Below are positions 20,764 through 30,995 of a DNA stretch of 64,000 bases, piece after piece. The DNA is from Planococcus antarcticus DSM 14505. GTDB lineage: Bacteria > Bacillota > Bacilli > Bacillales_A > Planococcaceae. Position 1 is the stretch's first letter. Every line of letters starts with the position of its first letter. The position numbers and the translations under genes are program-made. Location of the stretch: contig NZ_CP016534.2 in NCBI RefSeq assembly GCF_001687565.2, positions 1,244,501 through 1,308,500 of the forward strand. Reading direction: 5' to 3'. The notes beneath the pieces are model-generated. The model did not search any database, was not told the origin of the DNA, and worked only from the letters and a program-made list of their open reading frames with translations.

Positions 20764-20826
20764 CTCTCCTATCTCATATAGATTTCCTCATTTTACATGA
20801 GCGGCACTAAAAAAAATAGCAGTTTT

Positions 20827-20854
20827 TGAAACGCTGCATCGATTAGTCCGTATA
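20827..20854 (+). promoter_or_regulatory. ECF (sigma-W/M/X type) promoter
   Basis: TGAAAC (20827-20832), exactly 16 bases, then CGTATA (20849-20854). This equals the B. subtilis sigma-W consensus TGAAAC-N16-CGTA. It stands 54 bases upstream of the gene for the membrane-anchored sigma-like protein, as expected of an autoregulated ECF locus. Confidence 0.75.
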
Positions 20855-20907
20855 ACTATCATTAAGTTTAATAGAATGATTATTCCGACGAATCGGGGAG
20901 TGTGGCA

Positions 20908-23514
20908 ATGACATCAGAAACTGATTTATACAGAAAGGCTCAAATAGGGGATGAATTCGCATTTAAACTATGGGCCGACACTATTCAACCTAATATGGGG
21001 CGGTTCTCCTATCAACTAGGAGTTTCCATAGAAGCATTACCGAAGTTCCAACGGCGGAGTTTGCAGCAACTGCATAGACAACTAGAGTATCTTACGCAAG
21101 AACAGGCACAAGTCGACCTTTACAAAATAATGGTCCAGCAACTATCCACAAATTCCCTTGAACTTGAAATCAAAGAAAATCTCGCAGTGCTTGGCTTTCC
21201 GGAAGACGATGAACTGCATGCCGAGCTGCAGAAACTAGAACTGAACCAGCGGATCCCCTTGGTTCTAACTCATTTTCATAACCGTTCGAAAGTAGACATC
21301 GCCATGATTGCGGAGAAAACGGAGCATCAGATCATACAAACAATGAACGATGGGCTGCAGGCATTGCAGCACAATCTGCGATTGGATGAGGCGCAGGTGT
21401 TTCAACGTCTGGCCATGCTTCAGAAATCCTATCAGCGTTTTATGCCGCCAGCACCATTTGATCAGGAGATTCAGGGTGCGGACGAAAAATTTTCTGTTCC
21501 GGAAGTCTCAAAAACAACTGCATCACCTAGGCAAATCCGTAAAAAGCCAGCTATCGTGCTGGGAGCTGCCAGCCTTTTTCTGATAACGGTCATCGGCGTC
21601 AGTTTTTCTGTCAACGACCAGCTGATGGAAACGGCAGGTACGTCGGAAGGGAAGCAGGCTGAAAAAGTGACGGATGAAATGGTTGCAGATTGGCATAGCA
21701 AATACGAAATGATTAAAGAAACATCACCGGAACGTTTGGGGATGTCTCAAAAGCAGTATGTTCAGCTGGATTACGTCAAACTGGCCGATGCTGAAAGGGA
21801 AAGGGTTTTTAGCGATGAAATGCTAGATTCATTAAAAGATGATCCTATTAAAATGGAATCTACTGTCTATCGTCTTTTCTGGCAGATTGAAACCCCACAA
21901 GGAATGGTCGATTCTTTATCTAGTAATTCGATGTTGTCTTCTGCAGTAGATGATTTTCTACTAAATTATGCAGCGAAGACAGATGAGTTACGTTTTTTTG
22001 TCGAGGGGATGATGCAGAAATACCAACAGGAATTAGAAACGACAATTGTAATGGGCCAGTTGTCTCCAGAAAAACTGGTAGCACAATCTCATAGCTATCC
22101 CGAGCAATTGCGTAAAGTGATAGAAGCTTTACCGGAGTACAATTTGCTTGCAATCGTCAATCCAAATGACAATCAGTTTAGAACAATTCGAGATGTCAAC
22201 AAGCTCAATCAACAACATGTAATTGCATCTCACCCCTACGCTTTTCAATATTTGAGCTGGTTAAGTGGGGAACCTTATTTTGATGACAGTGGATTTTTCT
22301 GGCCAATTGATAATATTACACACAACCTGATCTCTATGGAGGAGTCTTTACTAGTGGAGGAGGAAGAGTCAGCATTGTTTGATGGAATAGAAGTGGCCTA
22401 TCAGCAAACGTTCTGGCAGTTGGTAAAAGGCAGCGACAGCTCTCCTGTTTTTGATAAGCAAGGCAAAGTTAAAGTAGAATACCAAAGCGCTTGGAATAGT
22501 ATTGCTTCGTCCAATCCAATGGCGTTTATCATACTGCCGATTTTAGAAGAAATGGAAGCGAGCGAGTGGACCACTTCAGCTGCTTACGATGAATTGGAGT
22601 TCCATGATTTGCAGGATGCTTTGGAGATGGAAAAGTCCGGGCAGCTTGCTGATAAATTGCCCAATGGCAATTTAATGATCGAAGATGAATTCGTCGATAT
22701 GCAGGATTTCGACTATAGCCGCATCCAATCCCTATACGAATCGTTTAAAGTGTCCCATGATTTGCAGCTGTTATCGGGTGTGCAGCCTCTAGATGTGCTA
22801 TTTGTGTATCATTACGCCAATAAAGTAGAAGATGCAAAGACGCAGTGGCATCTGTTGGCAGACAGTCCGTTAAAGCCCACACTGGAGACATTCATAAGGG
22901 ACTGGAAACAGATTCCTGAACTGACGAAAACAGCGAGATGGATTGAGCTTTCTAGCAATTCATTCAAACAAAGAGTAAAAGACAAAGTCTATATGTATCC
23001 TCAAGTCGATATGTACGAATTTGATGAGCGATTAGATCTGCTATTGGTTACAGAGAAAAATCAGATTTGGCAAATCGACTATCGTCAATACGAAAGCTAC
23101 GATTTGCAAGGCGAAGATCAGCAGTTTAAGCAAACCGTTGATTTGTTGTATCAAGCGTTTTCTGTTGATCAACAGCAACAACTTCTAGCGGAAGCCAAAC
23201 CAGGAGAAATAGCGGGTGTATTTTTTAAAGCTGTTGAAAACGAAGATATTCTGACCGTGAAAAACTTAATGGAAGAAGTCGATTGGAAAGATGAAGATTT
23301 TACTGCCTTATTCGAATCGCATAGTTTCCGTCCGTTTTCCGAATTGGCGCAATTAACATTCAAGAGCCATTTTGCTCCGAACAAAGCAACAGGTCATGCG
23401 GGTTCAGTGGAAATACTCTATGCTTCAGGACTTCAAGACGGCTTGTTTCCAGAGCATTTTTTCATGGAGAAAACCAAAAATGGCTGGCGAATGTCGAACA
23501 TAAACGAATACTGA
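20908..23514 (+). CDS. Membrane-anchored protein with sigma-70-like cytoplasmic head and large ectodomain
   Basis: 868 residues, not a family I recognise by name. Residues about 5-80 resemble sigma region 2 (LYRKAQIGDEFAFKLW, then a helical stretch) and 105-158 resemble region 4: LNQRIPLVLTHFHNRSKVDIAMIAEKTEHQIIQT in order, where the consensus reads LP..QR.VL.L.......EIA. A linker and RKK precede one transmembrane helix (about 213-235), implying cytoplasmic N-terminus and about 630 residues outside. The ectodomain is acidic and helix-rich; two segments (NQIWQIDY near 730 and KNGWRMSNI at the end) recall NTF2-like folds. ATG 20908 is chosen over GTG 20902 because GGGGAG at 20895-20900 spaces correctly. 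Either a tethered sigma factor or a degenerate sigma-derived anti-sigma/sensor. Confidence 0.8.
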   Translation: MTSETDLYRKAQIGDEFAFKLWADTIQPNMGRFSYQLGVSIEALPKFQRRSLQQLHRQLEYLTQEQAQVDLYKIMVQQLSTNSLELEIKENLAVLGFPEDDELHAELQKLELNQRIPLVLTHFHNRSKVDIAMIAEKTEHQIIQTMNDGLQALQHNLRLDEAQVFQRLAMLQKSYQRFMPPAPFDQEIQGADEKFSVPEVSKTTASPRQIRKKPAIVLGAASLFLITVIGVSFSVNDQLMETAGTSEGKQAEKVTDEMVADWHSKYEMIKETSPERLGMSQKQYVQLDYVKLADAERERVFSDEMLDSLKDDPIKMESTVYRLFWQIETPQGMVDSLSSNSMLSSAVDDFLLNYAAKTDELRFFVEGMMQKYQQELETTIVMGQLSPEKLVAQSHSYPEQLRKVIEALPEYNLLAIVNPNDNQFRTIRDVNKLNQQHVIASHPYAFQYLSWLSGEPYFDDSGFFWPIDNITHNLISMEESLLVEEEESALFDGIEVAYQQTFWQLVKGSDSSPVFDKQGKVKVEYQSAWNSIASSNPMAFIILPILEEMEASEWTTSAAYDELEFHDLQDALEMEKSGQLADKLPNGNLMIEDEFVDMQDFDYSRIQSLYESFKVSHDLQLLSGVQPLDVLFVYHYANKVEDAKTQWHLLADSPLKPTLETFIRDWKQIPELTKTARWIELSSNSFKQRVKDKVYMYPQVDMYEFDERLDLLLVTEKNQIWQIDYRQYESYDLQGEDQQFKQTVDLLYQAFSVDQQQQLLAEAKPGEIAGVFFKAVENEDILTVKNLMEEVDWKDEDFTALFESHSFRPFSELAQLTFKSHFAPNKATGHAGSVEILYASGLQDGLFPEHFFMEKTKNGWRMSNINEY

Positions 23515-24104: not shown

Positions 24105-24147
24105 AAAAACGAAGCGCAGACAATCATGTCTGCGCTTCGTTTTTTTT
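24105..24147. terminator. Bidirectional terminator at the end of the RocR-like gene
   Basis: AACGAAGCGCAGACA / TGTCTGCGCTTCGTT stem with a 4-base loop and A6/T8 flanks; it overlaps the last codons of the minus-strand gene. Confidence 0.85.
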
Positions 24148-25446
24148 GATTTTCCGCAATCGATATTGTAGATTTTGACGGCTCATGCCAAGTGCAGCAG
24201 CAGCTTTTGTAACATTTCCACCATGTAGATCCATCGCTTTCTGCAAGTAATATATTTCAGCTTCAAACAAGTAATCCTCGAGCGGCAGCAGATCCGTATT
24301 GGATTGAACGATAAAATCCTCAGGCTTATGCGCTCCGTTCAGATCGCTCTTAAGTTTGAAATGGTTGGGCAGCATGTCTGCGGTCACGATTTCCTGCGTT
24401 GTCAGCATGGATGTGGTTTCATCTAACAGCAATTCGAGCTCTTTTAAATTACCCGGCCAGTCATATGTATACAGTAAATCCGCTACTTCCTCATCCAGTC
24501 CACGAACGACCGAACCAACTTTCATCCGGTGGCGGGAAAAATAATCGTAAACAAACGGCAAGATATCTTCTTTTCTCGACCGCAGCGGTTCTACTTTAAT
24601 GGTCATGGATGAAAAGAAATAATACAGGTCTTTCAGTAATTTATGCGAAGCGATCAATTCGACCGGATCGTCGCCGACACTGGCGATAAAATAAGTATTA
24701 CTGCGTGAACCTTCTTCGGCCATCTCCAGTAATTGCTGCTGCAAAGACAGCGGCAGTAAATCGATTCTTTCACAGTAAATCGTGCCATCACCTATCTGTT
24801 TGCTATCTTCACCTAGTTGCTCGATGATGGTGCCGTCTGTTCCATGGGAATAGAGTGTATACATCTGTCTGCCAGAAGAATGCGCCCAATGAATCGCTTC
24901 CGCAATCAATTCTTTGCCGGTTCCCGATTCTCCCACCAGCAGCACTGGGAGTTTTGCTGTCGCTGCTTTTTCGGCCGTAGCAATCACTTTTTTCATACTT
25001 TTGGATAGAGCGGTAATCGTCGAGAAAGTGATAGGTTCGTCGTATTTTCTAAGTGGCTGATAAATCACTTTTTCAAGCGTTGTCACATCACGTGACAATT
25101 CAATGGCGCCAATTAGGTTTTTTCCATCGAGGACCGGATAAGTATCATTGATTGTCGTAATTTCCTGGCCTTTCCGGTTCCAATAAGTTTGTTTGACGTT
25201 AAAAACTGGCGTACCGCTTTGTAAAACCTGCAGCAGGGTGCTTTCATGCTGGTCGAAGCGGAACATCTCAAGCAGTGAACGATCTACCAGCTCCTCGAAA
25301 TCGAACCCTTCAATTTCTCGCATTTTTTTATTATAAAGAATGGTTTTTCCTTTTGTATCTATGGCGTGAATCCCAATAGCCACGTGTTCTCCAGCAAATT
25401 TATAGAACGGGGATAAGTCGATATTTTCTGGCTTCAAAACGATCAC
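24124..25446 (-). CDS. RocR-like PAS-AAA-Fis regulator lacking sigma-54 activation motifs
   Basis: 440 residues: PAS domain (about 10-125), AAA+ domain (about 145-370) and Fis-type helix-turn-helix (NVTKAAAALGMSRQNLQYRLRK). Position, divergent from rocA, and domain order indicate the arginine/ornithine regulator RocR. However, the AAA+ core is degraded: Walker A GESGTGKE is intact, but the GAFTGA loop that contacts sigma-54 is deleted (about 25 residues missing), Walker B reads GTIYCERI instead of GTLFLDEI, and the FREDLYYRLN arginines are replaced by LLKDLYYFFS. ATP-driven opening of a sigma-54 promoter looks impossible; it may act like TyrR on sigma-70 promoters. Confidence 0.85.
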   Translation of the reverse strand: MIVLKPENIDLSPFYKFAGEHVAIGIHAIDTKGKTILYNKKMREIEGFDFEELVDRSLLEMFRFDQHESTLLQVLQSGTPVFNVKQTYWNRKGQEITTINDTYPVLDGKNLIGAIELSRDVTTLEKVIYQPLRKYDEPITFSTITALSKSMKKVIATAEKAATAKLPVLLVGESGTGKELIAEAIHWAHSSGRQMYTLYSHGTDGTIIEQLGEDSKQIGDGTIYCERIDLLPLSLQQQLLEMAEEGSRSNTYFIASVGDDPVELIASHKLLKDLYYFFSSMTIKVEPLRSRKEDILPFVYDYFSRHRMKVGSVVRGLDEEVADLLYTYDWPGNLKELELLLDETTSMLTTQEIVTADMLPNHFKLKSDLNGAHKPEDFIVQSNTDLLPLEDYLFEAEIYYLQKAMDLHGGNVTKAAAALGMSRQNLQYRLRKIKKNEAQT

Positions 25447-25487
25447 TCCAAAATTATTTTGACTTTTTAAACGAAAATACTTGAATT

Positions 25488-25506
25488 ATGCAACAATCTT
25501 TTGCAT
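25488..25506. promoter_or_regulatory. ATGCAA-N7-TTGCAT dyad between the RocR-like gene and rocA
   Basis: A perfect 6-7-6 inverted repeat lies about 42 bases upstream of the regulator and 70 upstream of rocA. It is the best candidate operator in the intergenic region for the divergent regulator. No TGGCAC-N5-TTGC sigma-54 promoter is present. Confidence 0.5.
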
Positions 25507-25576
25507 TATTATAAGTGGAAACAGTTTAAAAGTGCAAATTTTTTTTGCGCTTACTTAAAATTCAAGGAGGATTTAC

Positions 25577-27121
25577 ATGATTCCCTATAAACACGAACCG
25601 TTCACAGATTTCTCGGTTGATCAAAACCGCACAGATTACCTTGAGGGCTTGAAAACAGTTGAAGCTTACCTTGGACAAGACTACCCGTTAATTATTGGTG
25701 GAGAACGCATCACTACTGAAGATAAAATCGTTTCATTTAATCCTTCAAATAAAGAAGAACTAATTGGCAATGTCTCTAAGTCAAATAAAGAATTAGCTAA
25801 AAAAGCAATGCAGTCAGCTGACGAAGCTTTTAAAACATGGAAAAAAGTAAAACCTGAAGTTCGCGCTGATGTATTGCTTAGAGCGTCTGCAATTATACGC
25901 CGCCGCAAGTTCGAATTCTCAGCACTTTTAACAAAAGAAGCAGGCAAGCCTTGGAACGAAGCAGATGCAGATACAGCTGAAGCAATTGATTTCTTGGAAT
26001 ACTATGCTCGTCAAATGCTGCGCCTTAAAGATGGTATGCCAGTAGAAAGCCGTCCAGGTGAAGATAACCGTTATGACTACATTCCTTTAGGTGTAGGCGT
26101 TGTTATTTCCCCGTGGAACTTTGCATTCGCAATTATGGCTGGAACAACTGCAGCAGCGATGGTAGCAGGAAATACTGTACTATTAAAGCCAGCTTCAACA
26201 ACGCCAATCGTTGCTTACAAGTTTATCGAAGTTCTTGAAGAAGCAGGTATGCCAGCAGGCGTGGTTAACTTTATTCCTGGACCAGGTTCTGAAGTTGGAG
26301 ACTATTTAGTCGATCACCCGAACACTCGTTTTATCTCATTTACTGGTTCAAAAGAAGTCGGATTGCGCATCGCAGAACGTTCTTCAAAAGTGCACGAAGG
26401 ACAAATTTGGATGAAACGTTTGATTGCTGAAATGGGCGGAAAAAATACAATGGTAGTGGATAAAGAAGCTGATCTTGAGCTTGCTGCGCAATCAATTGTG
26501 AAATCTGCTTTCGGCTTTAGTGGACAGAAATGTTCAGCTGGATCACGTGCAGTTATCGTTGAAGACGTATACGATACAGTACTTGAGCGCGTTATCGAAT
26601 TGACGAAAGAATTGACAATCGGTGACCCAACAGATCAGTCTAACTACATGGGGCCAGTTATCGACGGCAACTCATATGACAAAATCATGAGCTATATCGA
26701 AATTGGTAAAGAAGAAGGACGTTTAGTAGCTGGTGGAGACGGAGATAATTCTAAAGGTTTCTTCGTAAACCCAACTGTCTTTGCAGATCTTGATCCACAA
26801 GCACGCATCATGCAGGAAGAAATCTTTGGCCCAGTTGTTGGCCTAATGAAAGCAAAAGATTTTGACCATGCACTTGAAATTGCCAACAATACGGAGTACG
26901 GCTTGACGGGTGCAGTTATCACAAACAACCGCGTGAACCTTGAAAAAGCCCGTGAAGATTTCCATGTCGGAAACCTATACTTTAACCGCGGTTGCACAGG
27001 TGCAATCGTTGGATATCAATCATTCGGCGGATTCAATATGTCAGGAACTGATTCAAAAGCAGGCGGACCAGATTATATCGGTCTTCATATGCAAGCAAAA
27101 ATCACTTCTGAAATGTACTGA
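25577..27121 (+). CDS. rocA: 1-pyrroline-5-carboxylate dehydrogenase
   Basis: 514-residue aldehyde dehydrogenase, oxidising glutamate-semialdehyde/P5C to glutamate with NAD+, the shared step of arginine, ornithine and proline catabolism. The active site is seen in [12 protein letters not shown] (catalytic Cys about residue 320), with the general-base glutamate in LIAEMGGKN and the adenine-binding motif GSKEVG. AAGGAGG precedes the ATG. First of the rocA-rocD-rocG group, divergent from the RocR-like gene. Confidence 0.96.
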
Positions 27122-27150
27122 TAAATCATAAAATGTTATAATAACTCACC

Positions 27151-27179
27151 AAAAGGCAGACGGATGTCTGCCTTTTTTT
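27151..27179 (+). terminator. Terminator/attenuator between rocA and rocD
   Basis: AAAAGGCAGAC / GTCTGCCTTTTTTT stem with a GGAT loop. rocD begins 20 bases later with no clear promoter, so partial read-through is likely. Confidence 0.8.
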
Positions 27180-27198
27180 AAAAAAAGGAGGAAATCAC

Positions 27199-28392
27199 AT
27201 GACACAAACACAAACTATCATCGAACAAACAGAAAAATACGGAGCGAACAATTATCATCCGCTGCCGATCGTTATTACAGAAGCGGAAGGCGTTTGGGTA
27301 AAAGATCCAGAAGGCAATAAATTCATGGATATGCTGTCAGCTTATTCAGCTGTCAATCAGGGACATCGTCATCCGAAGATCATTCAGGCGTTGAAAGACC
27401 AAGCAGACCGCGTTACCTTAACTTCACGTGCTTTCCATAATGATAAATTGGCTCCTTGGTATCAAATGATCTGCGATATTTCCGGCAAGGAGATGGCGTT
27501 GCCGATGAATACAGGCGCTGAAGCTGTAGAGACAGCCATAAAAGCAGCTCGCCGCTGGGCTTATGACGTCAAAGGCGTTGCTGAAAACCAGGCAGAAATC
27601 ATAGCCTGTGAAGGAAACTTCCACGGTCGTACGATGACAGCTGTTTCATTATCCTCAGATCCTGAATACCGTAGAGGCTTCGGACCGATGCTTCCAGGCA
27701 TTAATGTAGTTGCTTTTGGTGATTTGGAAGCATTGAAAAATGCCATCACACCAAACACTGCTGCATTCTTGATCGAACCAATTCAAGGAGAAGCCGGAAT
27801 TATTATGCCTCCAAAAGGTTTCTTAAAAGCTGCTAGAGAACTTTGCCGTGAAAACAACGTGCTTTTCATTGCTGATGAAATCCAGTGTGGTCTTGCGCGA
27901 ACAGGTAAAATGTTCGCTTGTGAATGGGAAGATGTAAATCCAGATATGTATATTCTAGGAAAAGCGCTTGGCGGCGGCGTATTCCCGATCTCATGCGTCG
28001 TAGCAGACAAATCTGTTCTGGGTGTATTTAATCCGGGATCACACGGTTCTACTTTTGGTGGGAATCCACTAGCTTGTGCTGTTTCGGTAGCATCTCTAGA
28101 AGTATTGCTTGACGAAAAACTGTCTGAACGCTCTCAAGAGCTGGGTGAGTACTTTATGGAGAAATTGCGTGAAATCGATCATCCATCTGTGAAAGAAGTT
28201 AGAGGCCGTGGCTTATTCATCGGTATGGAATTGACTGAAGCAGCAAGACCTTATTGCGAGCAATTGAAAGAATTAGGCCTTTTGTGCAAAGAAACGCATG
28301 ACACGGTCATCCGTTTTGCCCCCCCATTAATCATTTCAAAAGAAGAATTGGATTGGGCAATCGAACGCATTCAAAAAGTATTTTCTAAATAA
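27199..28392 (+). CDS. rocD: Ornithine aminotransferase
   Basis: PLP enzyme of 397 residues converting ornithine and 2-oxoglutarate to glutamate-semialdehyde and glutamate. The class-III aminotransferase signature [19 protein letters not shown] and the PLP lysine in [12 protein letters not shown] are present; [11 protein letters not shown] follows. It supplies the substrate of RocA next door. Ribosome site AAAGGAGG. Confidence 0.95.
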
Positions 28393-28474
28393 CATCGGCA
28401 TGGCACATAATTCTTGACATGTGTTACACTAGATGCTGAGTAATTACTAAAATATAAAGAGGCGAACTAATACA

Positions 28475-29719
28475 ATGGCTGAAAACTTGAACTTGTTGAC
28501 GTCTACGCAGAATGTTATTAAAACTGCATTGGATAAGCTTGGATACGAAGATGCGATGTACGAACTTCTAAAAGAACCGATGCGGATTTTGGAAGTGCGC
28601 ATTCCGGTGCGTATGGATGATGGCAAAACAAAAGTCTTTACAGGTTACCGCGCTCAACACAGTGATGCGGTTGGACCGACAAAAGGTGGAGTCCGTTTTC
28701 ATCCGGATGTAAATCGCGATGAAGTCATTGCTTTATCAATGTGGATGACATTAAAATGTGGAATTGTGGAATTGCCTTACGGCGGAGCGAAGGGTGGCAT
28801 TATCTGCGATCCGCGTGAAATGTCCATGCACGAAATTGAGAAATTGAGTCGTGGCTATGTTCGCGCAATCAGCCAGATTGTCGGACCGAACAAAGATATT
28901 CCGGCACCTGATGTGTTCACCAACTCCCAGATTATGGCCTGGATGTACGATGAATACAGCAAACTCGATGAATTCAACTCTCCTGGTTTTATTACAGGAA
29001 AGCCAATTGTTCTTGGTGGATCTCAGGGCCGAGACAAAGCGACTGCACAAGGAGTGACCATCTGTATTAATGAAGCTGCAAAAAAACGCGGCCTCGATAT
29101 GCAGGGGGCACGCATTGTTATTCAAGGTTTCGGTAATGCAGGAAGCTTCCTGGCAAAGTTTCTCCATGACGCAGGAGCAAAAGTAGTCGGGATTTCGGAT
29201 GCATACGGTGCTCTTCACGATCCAGATGGCTTGGACATCGATTATTTGTTGGACCGCCGTGACAGTTTCGGTACGGTTACTACGTTATTTGATAACACCA
29301 TTACAAACAAAGAGTTGTTTGAACTGGATTGTGATATTCTGGTACCAGCAGCTATCGCAAATCAGATTACGGAAGAAAATGCCAATAACATCAAAGCTTC
29401 GATCGTTGTTGAAGCAGCGAATGGTCCAACGACAGCTGAAGCCACTAAGATGCTGACGGATCGTGGAATCCTTCTGGTTCCTGATGTTTTGGCAAGTTCT
29501 GGTGGAGTTACGGTTTCTTACTTTGAATGGGTGCAGAATAACCAAGGTTATTATTGGACACAGGAAGAAGTGGACGAGAAACTCAATAAAAAACTGGTTG
29601 ATGCATTTGAAAATGTCTACAACGTTGCCATTACACGCAATATCGATATGCGTTTAGCAGCTTATATGGTCGGCGCCCGCAGAACTGCTGAAGCTTCACG
29701 CTTCCGTGGATGGGTATAA
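28475..29719 (+). CDS. rocG: NAD-dependent glutamate dehydrogenase
   Basis: 414 residues. The catalytic block LPYGGAKGGIICDPREMS contains the active lysine, and VIQGFGNAGSFLAKFL is the nucleotide-binding motif. Deaminates glutamate made by RocA to 2-oxoglutarate and ammonia, feeding the TCA cycle. gudB-type annotation is equally possible from sequence alone; the roc context favours rocG. Upstream there is TTGACA at 28414, but no good -10 at standard spacing. Confidence 0.93.
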   Translation: MAENLNLLTSTQNVIKTALDKLGYEDAMYELLKEPMRILEVRIPVRMDDGKTKVFTGYRAQHSDAVGPTKGGVRFHPDVNRDEVIALSMWMTLKCGIVELPYGGAKGGIICDPREMSMHEIEKLSRGYVRAISQIVGPNKDIPAPDVFTNSQIMAWMYDEYSKLDEFNSPGFITGKPIVLGGSQGRDKATAQGVTICINEAAKKRGLDMQGARIVIQGFGNAGSFLAKFLHDAGAKVVGISDAYGALHDPDGLDIDYLLDRRDSFGTVTTLFDNTITNKELFELDCDILVPAAIANQITEENANNIKASIVVEAANGPTTAEATKMLTDRGILLVPDVLASSGGVTVSYFEWVQNNQGYYWTQEEVDEKLNKKLVDAFENVYNVAITRNIDMRLAAYMVGARRTAEASRFRGWV

Positions 29720-29727
29720 GACTCAAA

Positions 29728-29763
29728 GAAACCGCCTGGAGATTTTGATCCAGGCGGTTTTTC
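29728..29763 (+). terminator. Terminator after rocG
   Basis: AAACCGCCTGGA / TCCAGGCGGTTT stem, 8-base loop, then T run. Confidence 0.88.
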
Positions 29764-29831
29764 TATCTCAATCTTTTGCTTTTCTATGTAAGAAACATCA
29801 TACTATGATTTGAATAGAGGAGGATGATTGG

Positions 29832-30995
29832 ATGAATGCATTTTCATTTTATAACCCGGTAAAACTTATTTTCGGTGAAGGCCAGCTTCAAGCGATCAAG
29901 AAAGAATTACCGAAATTCGGCAAAAAAGTTTTACTTGTATATGGTGGAGGCAGCATTAAAAAGAATGGCCTTTACGATGAAGTTATTCAAACCTTAGCTG
30001 AAGCTAAGCTTGAAGTTTTCGAACTAGCCGGAGTGGAACCAAATCCACGGATCTCAACCGCGAAAAAAGGGATCGAAATCTGCAAAAAAGAAGGCATTGA
30101 TATGCTGTTAGCAGTTGGTGGCGGTTCGGTCATTGACTGCACTAAACTCATCGCATGTGGCGCCAAGTATGATGGAGATGCATGGGATTTAGTTTCCCGC
30201 AAAGCACAGCCGAAAGAAGCGTTGCCTTTCGGAACAGTTTTGACAATCGCCGCAACTGGTTCTGAAATGAATGCAGGTTCTGTAATCACCAACGAAGAAA
30301 CACAGGAAAAGTATGGCTGGGGAAGCCCATTGTCGTTTCCTCAATTCTCAATCCTAGATCCGACTTACACCTTATCGGTACCGGAAAACCACACGGTCTA
30401 TGGAATTGTTGACATGATGTCCCATATTTTCGAACAATATTTCAATGATGCTACTAGCACACCAGTGCAAGATCGGATGTGTGAAGGGGTCTTGAGTGCA
30501 GTTATCGAAACTGCACCGAAACTAATGAAGGATCTTCAAAGCTATGAGCATCGCGAAACCATTATGTTCGCTGGCACAATGGCTTTGAATAAATTTCTTG
30601 AAATGGGCTACAGAGGAGACTGGGGTTCACATAACATCGAACACGCGGTGTCTGCTGTTTACGACATTCCTCATGCTGGTGGATTGGCAATTCTTTTCCC
30701 GCAATGGATGCGCCATAATGTGAAAGTGAATCCTGGCCGCTTTGCTCAAATGGCGGTTCGTGTCTTTGATGTCGATCCGGCAGGTAAGTCGGAGTCTGAT
30801 GTCGCTTTCGAAGGCATCGATCGCTTATCAGCATTTTGGACTTCACTCGGAGCACCAACGCGGTTGGACTACTACGAAATCGATGATTCTAAAATCGACT
30901 TGATGGTCGAAAAAGCGGTGATTTATGGTGAATTTGGCAACTTTGCAAAATTAAAAGGCGAAGACGTTAAAGAAATTCTGCAGGCTTCTCTATAA
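29832..30995 (+). CDS. Iron-containing alcohol dehydrogenase (YugJ/BdhA-like)
   Basis: 387-residue group-III alcohol dehydrogenase, similar to NADH-dependent butanol dehydrogenases. The dinucleotide-binding [10 protein letters not shown], the [11 protein letters not shown] motif and the metal ligands ([11 protein letters not shown], then [20 protein letters not shown]) are all present. Probably reduces aldehydes with NAD(P)H; the physiological substrate is uncertain. AGGAGGA serves the ATG. Its terminator is split by the insertion sequence. Confidence 0.92.

Follow-up and report, generated by a model that had tools for sequence, protein, structure and literature searches.

A window of 64,000 nucleotides from Planococcus antarcticus DSM 14505 (contig NZ_CP016534.2, positions 1,244,501 to 1,308,500 of the forward strand) contains a gene at 20908 to 23514 of its plus strand that, on sequence comparison, almost certainly arose when an extracytoplasmic function (ECF) sigma factor gene fused with the downstream gene for its cognate membrane anti-sigma, with subsequent degeneration of the sigma part. 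The product is most likely no longer a transcription factor but an envelope protein controlled by sigma-W, a function that we infer. The reading favored here, to which a probability of about 0.58 is assigned, is that of an internally locked pseudo-sigma carried by an envelope protein under sigma-W. The fused protein would no longer direct transcription, and its pseudo-sigma head would stay docked intramolecularly on the anti-sigma helix that lies shortly ahead of the membrane, leaving the anti-sigma segment permanently occupied. The working part would be the ectodomain, acting as an envelope or sensor protein anchored in the membrane, and sigma-W would make the protein in the clade to which the window belongs.

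The gene is a single open frame of 868 codons plus stop. The predicted protein starts with a degenerate sigma region 2-like domain (residues 5 to 82; 20920 to 21153) and a sigma region 4-like domain whose recognition helix lacks net positive charge (residues 98 to 158; 21199 to 21381). A profile of stand-alone sigmas matches residues 3 to 137, spanning both regions, with region 2 at residues 3 to 77 (E = 9.7e-7); taken by itself, region 2 reaches only P = 0.012 against the ECF sigmas of the same genome. The structure model predicts an ECF sigma2 plus sigma4 fold in the head with good confidence, and together with the profile matches this rules out a spurious resemblance to sigma factors. One clear transmembrane helix was found by hydropathy (residues about 214 to 234; 21547 to 21609; maximum at residues 215 to 233), and the ectodomain of about 620 residues (residues 250 to 868; 21655 to 23511) is long and confidently modeled by AlphaFold2, with a predicted local distance difference test score above 85 in most 10-residue blocks. 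Its C-terminal residues 762 to 868 (23191 to 23511) give a weak fold match to NTF2-like domains. No Pfam family matches the whole protein, or residues 235 to 868, at E ≤ 1, and neither a FecR-type anti-sigma domain nor a zinc finger was found in it; there is also no receiver domain match in Pfam, and the PhyR subfamily model scores 22.3 bits, its cut-off being 240. A preliminary description made from the letters of the window had proposed this frame, a sigma fold within residues 1 to 160, one transmembrane helix, a long ectodomain and an exact TGAAAC-N16-CGTATA upstream, all of which were confirmed, the fold as a prediction.

The origin of the protein is apparent from the corresponding locus in related genera and in genomes beyond the family, recognized by the downstream S1-domain gene and by nearby genes for a PAS/AAA regulator, an aldehyde dehydrogenase, an NSS transporter or an aminotransferase. 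There, two overlapping genes encode a canonical ECF sigma, some 184 amino acids long, and a membrane anti-sigma. Across 17 two-gene loci the second gene encodes 551 to 734 amino acids, except in L100 (434 amino acids) and L101 (401 amino acids), and its product starts with a motif like FEKRMELLKKSYxR. The corresponding motif of the window protein, RLAMLQKSYQR, lies in a probable anti-sigma docking helix (residues 160 to 178; 21385 to 21441) and is also present at the N terminus of the stand-alone anti-sigmas; its R167, S174 and R177 are invariant in 40 of 40 Planococcus proteins. Both stand-alone sigmas tested exceed the Pfam cut-offs for regions 2 and 4, and neither of the two stand-alone anti-sigmas tested matches a Pfam or NCBIfam family. 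Profile A4, which represents the stand-alone anti-sigmas, aligns from end to end (positions 2 to 710 of 716) with residues 160 to 862 of the window protein (21385 to 23493; E = 2.6e-91). The preliminary description was thus right in placing the sigma-like domain and the extracytoplasmic part on one polypeptide, the two parts being matched by the stand-alone sigma and anti-sigma profiles. Its statement that no anti-sigma gene is adjacent holds for a separate gene only, since profile A4 and the two-gene loci identify the rest of the polypeptide as the cognate anti-sigma; the same evidence rules out an ordinary ECF sigma with an unlinked anti-sigma. In 16 of the 17 loci the anti-sigma start codon (ATG) falls within the sigma gene, with an overlap of 8 or 11 nucleotides in the +1 frame, so that a small insertion or deletion there would fuse both genes; in L100 the script found no anti-sigma ATG within the sigma gene.

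Members of the window family occur in 45 of 46 genomes of its own genus, as one open frame in 43 of them, and none was found in G023. The gene is broken in G004, and in G125 it is split near the transmembrane helix (L136, 2443 to 5048) into a 224-amino-acid head frame and a 636-amino-acid ectodomain frame, through either a sequencing error or a real change. The stand-alone sigma profile matches at E ≤ 1e-30 in 99 of 261 genomes of the family and in none of the 46 own-genus genomes. Two of the 99 matches lie inside fused open reading frames of 916 and 930 amino acids (G109 and G117), and the other 97 in frames of at most 255 amino acids, five of them partial or with a stop (G072, G073, G147, G240 and G274); the match in G171 (1.7e-31) may be another ECF sigma. 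A second intact cognate sigma elsewhere in the window's own genome was rejected, as the best other match is SigW at 1.0e-26, where most matches in the family range from 1e-54 to 1e-106. In the three genomes examined outside the family (L130 to L132), two genes stand beside the S1 gene, with the NSS transporter gene in two of the three, and for this reason the two-gene arrangement is regarded as ancestral; re-evolution of an intact sigma from a degenerate one is unlikely. No full-length relative outside the family was found in the protein database among candidates sharing exact words with the query, a search that misses remote ones, and a class-wide search gave weak matches in 16 of 398 outside-family genomes, many to the C-terminal part only.

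A tree built on the anti-sigma part of 46 rows (32 fused and 14 separate) changes between the separate and fused labels four times, and at least three of the changes are forced by starred branches. The fused L125 groups with the separate anti-sigmas L122 and L126 (support 99/97), Planococcus groups with L124 and L091 (100/100), 16 Sporosarcina-type fusions form one group (100/99), and L127b is placed near the separate Sporosarcina anti-sigmas (91/64). The approximately unbiased test rejects a single clade of all fused proteins (p = 0.009), as well as a clade of Planococcus, L124, L091 and L125 (p = 0.007), a group chosen after the tree had been seen. The number of fusion events is uncertain because long branches are present, and two short anti-sigmas add to the uncertainty of the tree; moreover, change counts cannot separate gain from loss, and the direction rests on the degenerate heads and the outside-family genomes. 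Fusion of sigma and anti-sigma nevertheless seems, from this tree, to have occurred more than once in related bacteria, and since the joining was apparently repeated, the broken-looking switch appears to be kept for another job. Tandem copies also occur. Two or three fused pseudo-sigma/anti-sigma genes stand in a row in L120 (4233 to 10766), L127 (5008 to 9865) and L099 (1751 to 6139), the third of L120 being split into a 183-amino-acid head frame and a 505-amino-acid ectodomain frame. In nine loci (L094 to L098 and L100 to L103) the third gene is a fused paralogue with a degenerate sigma head directly 3' of the intact pair, and intact pair and pseudo-sigma fusion therefore coexist. L093 (NZ_JADHDX010000025.1) is a Sporosarcina-type locus in a record named Arthrobacter, where contamination or a wrong name is likely.

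The promoter differs between the two-gene and the fused state. Thirteen of 14 two-gene operons carry TG(A/T)AAC-N17-CGT(ATC, GTC or TAC) 43 to 62 nucleotides 5' of the sigma start used, always with a spacer of 17, where dinucleotide shuffles predict 0.01; L100 is the operon without it. The only N17-CGTATC among the 27 sites listed for G152 is that of the operon itself, and the ancestral promoter was presumably autoregulated. The window gene has TGAAAC-N16-CGTATA at 20827 to 20854, a predicted promoter of the sigma-W type, followed by a probable ribosome binding site (GGGGAG, 20895 to 20900). Homologues share it: 16 of 28 own-genus upstream regions (L012 to L033, L105 to L107, L110, L117 and L118) carry TGAAAC-N16-CGTA, always with a spacer of 16 and 15 of them reading CGTAT, against 0.03 expected, although such counts are less than independent because the relatives are close. 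The change from N17-CGTATC to N16-CGTATA thus concerns part of the genus. TGAAAC-N16-CGTA is the sigma-W consensus; it is not printed in PMC3498285. The genome has 11 matches to sigma region 2, including sigW followed by an anti-sigma-like gene of the RsiW type (L002), and the same promoter type as that of the window gene stands 5' of this sigW; both sequence marks of a sigma-W regulon member, the site and a sigW gene in the genome, are therefore present. The promoter of the preliminary description looks real and of the sigma-W type; from the 64-kb window alone it is not significant. An upstream block at about 20783 to 20822, CATTTTACAYGAGC followed by an A-run and ATAG, is conserved in most Planococcus loci shown and may be a part of the divergently oriented gene for the NSS transporter.

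The sigma part is shown by alignment to have lost most of its presumed polymerase, -10 and -35 contact residues, while the predicted fold and a few group-specific residues are kept. Positions D45, Q48 and E49 of region 2.2 (stand-alone sigma numbering), which we take to bind core polymerase, are kept in 10%, 35% and 7% of the 40 Planococcus heads, and the -10 recognition and melting positions W69, D80, R83 and K84 of regions 2.3 and 2.4 in 0 to 5%. The mean net charge of the recognition helix is −1.9 in these heads (range, −5 to +1), −2.4 in 17 Sporosarcina-type heads, +0.5 in two g21-type heads and 0 in L125, compared with +4.6 in 14 stand-alone sigmas and likewise +4.6 in five ECF sigmas of the same genome. 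Region 2 is nearly intact in two fused proteins, L125 (over both Pfam cut-offs) and L134 (by eye).

What this degenerate head does could be explained in other ways. The alternative that survives best, although improbable, is that of an active decoy or partner switch, in which the head would bind and titrate some other protein, either a regulator or an unbound anti-sigma like RsiW, much as the sigma-like domain of PhyR does with NepR. Somewhat less probable still is a useful ectodomain with a passive sigma head, a slowly decaying leftover of the fusion. Such decay would fit a head in which only 10 of the 89 columns that stand-alone sigmas conserve reach ≥90% retention, and which evolves faster than the ectodomain (w of 0.22 to 0.67 versus 0.11 to 0.17, the ectodomain being under the stronger constraint; w is 0.02 to 0.13 in four stand-alone sigma pairs). 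However, w of the head is below 1 in nine of nine usable pairs (11 entered, two identical, the nine not all independent), Q35, G37, F114, E116, D117 and H121 are kept in 40 of 40 heads, and the fold is modeled with good confidence; selection on the head is, by these sequence measures, relaxed yet not free. A working membrane-tethered sigma freed by regulated proteolysis, which the architecture of IutY (cytosolic sigma, one transmembrane helix and an outside anti-sigma part, as described in PMC5411451 and PMC8999054) brings to mind, is very improbable, as this lineage has lost most of the core, -10 and -35 contact residues, the recognition helix averages no net positive charge over the 40 heads and the spacing seen in the two-gene operons has not been kept in the promoter; activation by proteolysis, as envisaged in the preliminary description, is thereby weakened.

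For the internally locked pseudo-sigma speaks the model of the head, which is predicted in the closed, anti-sigma-bound arrangement of CnrH-CnrY, SigW-RsiW and RpoE-NepR. The two-gene loci, the matches of both stand-alone profiles, the lack of a stand-alone sigma match in the 46 own-genus genomes, the lost contact residues and positive charge, the invariant docking motif, the stronger constraint on the ectodomain and the shift from N17 to N16 also speak for it. Several observations count against it. The closed arrangement is only predicted; a low-confidence control model of a stand-alone sigma is also closer to the closed than to the open state, and the window model agrees poorly with two structures in the anti-sigma-bound state (1or7 at 10.9 Å and 4nqw at 9.5 Å). 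The group-specific residues, possibly involved in anti-sigma docking, are as a class not better kept than general ECF residues (Mann-Whitney p = 0.71). Twelve of the 28 own-genus upstream regions have no sigma-W site, 10 of them having TATAAT, and 8 of the 16 regions with the site also read CGTATAAT, in which an overlapping TATAAT might be used by sigma-A. The gene is dispensable, as it was not found in G023 and is broken in G004. A wider scenario can be offered only tentatively: several independent fusions in one Bacillales family, eased by the out-of-frame overlap of 8 to 11 nucleotides, would have turned a sigma into a membrane-held, non-transcriptional mimic kept by selection, with the Planococcus mimic passed to sigma-W and acting either as a decoy or as a lock built into an envelope-stress protein.

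The series from a separate pair, through fusions with near-intact region 2 (L125 and L134), to fusions with a dead sigma seems to be new; it was apparently repeated in parallel, and a change in promoter spacing went along with it. The series makes it possible to test how a regulatory pair becomes a protein of different function. Caution in naming is also called for, as at least 4 of 28 collected related proteins bear a sigma-type name in a source and are probably not sigma factors. Downstream in the window (24124 to 30995), a PAS/AAA regulator of the sigma-54 activator type is followed by genes resembling those of arginine and ornithine catabolism, presumably roc genes for a 514-amino-acid aldehyde dehydrogenase, an aminotransferase and glutamate dehydrogenase; a loose sigma-54 pattern for these genes was found 33 times with 35 expected, not above chance.

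A search of open-licence papers found none on a Planococcus ECF sigma factor and, judged by title, none on this fusion in the Sporosarcina sigma and anti-sigma literature. Among known systems, the RsgI9 anti-sigma of Clostridium thermocellum gives only a weak fold match; it belongs to a different sigma family and is not known to be fused to a sigma. SigW-RsiW consists of two separate proteins with a working sigma, and the window genome has its own SigW and RsiW-type genes elsewhere. PhyR, whose sigma-like domain binds the anti-sigma NepR, is alike in having a sigma fold without a transcription function, and gives a weak profile and fold match to the window protein. It is, however, a response regulator that is soluble and carries a receiver domain, whereas the window protein sits in the membrane and has its own anti-sigma in the same chain. 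IutY carries a FecR-type domain, in contrast to the window protein, in which none was detected and whose separate two-gene ancestor is still found at the locus of relatives. The IutY protein of Pseudomonas putida (ECF243) is a sigma/anti-sigma hybrid (PMC5411451, PMC8999054) which, like the window protein, combines a cytosolic ECF sigma domain, a single transmembrane helix and an extracytoplasmic anti-sigma part in one polypeptide; its working sigma is released by Prc and RseP, whereas that of the window protein is degenerate. The ECF48, ECF52 and ECF53 sigmas of Actinobacteria, e.g., SCO4117, share a C-terminal transmembrane extension, thought to be a fused anti-sigma (PMC8999054, PMC5826349); their anti-sigma domain is of the zinc-finger type and their sigma is expected to be functional, in contrast to the window protein with its degenerate sigma and no such domain found. 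Fusions of sigma and anti-sigma with a working sigma are already known (IutY, ECF52 and others).
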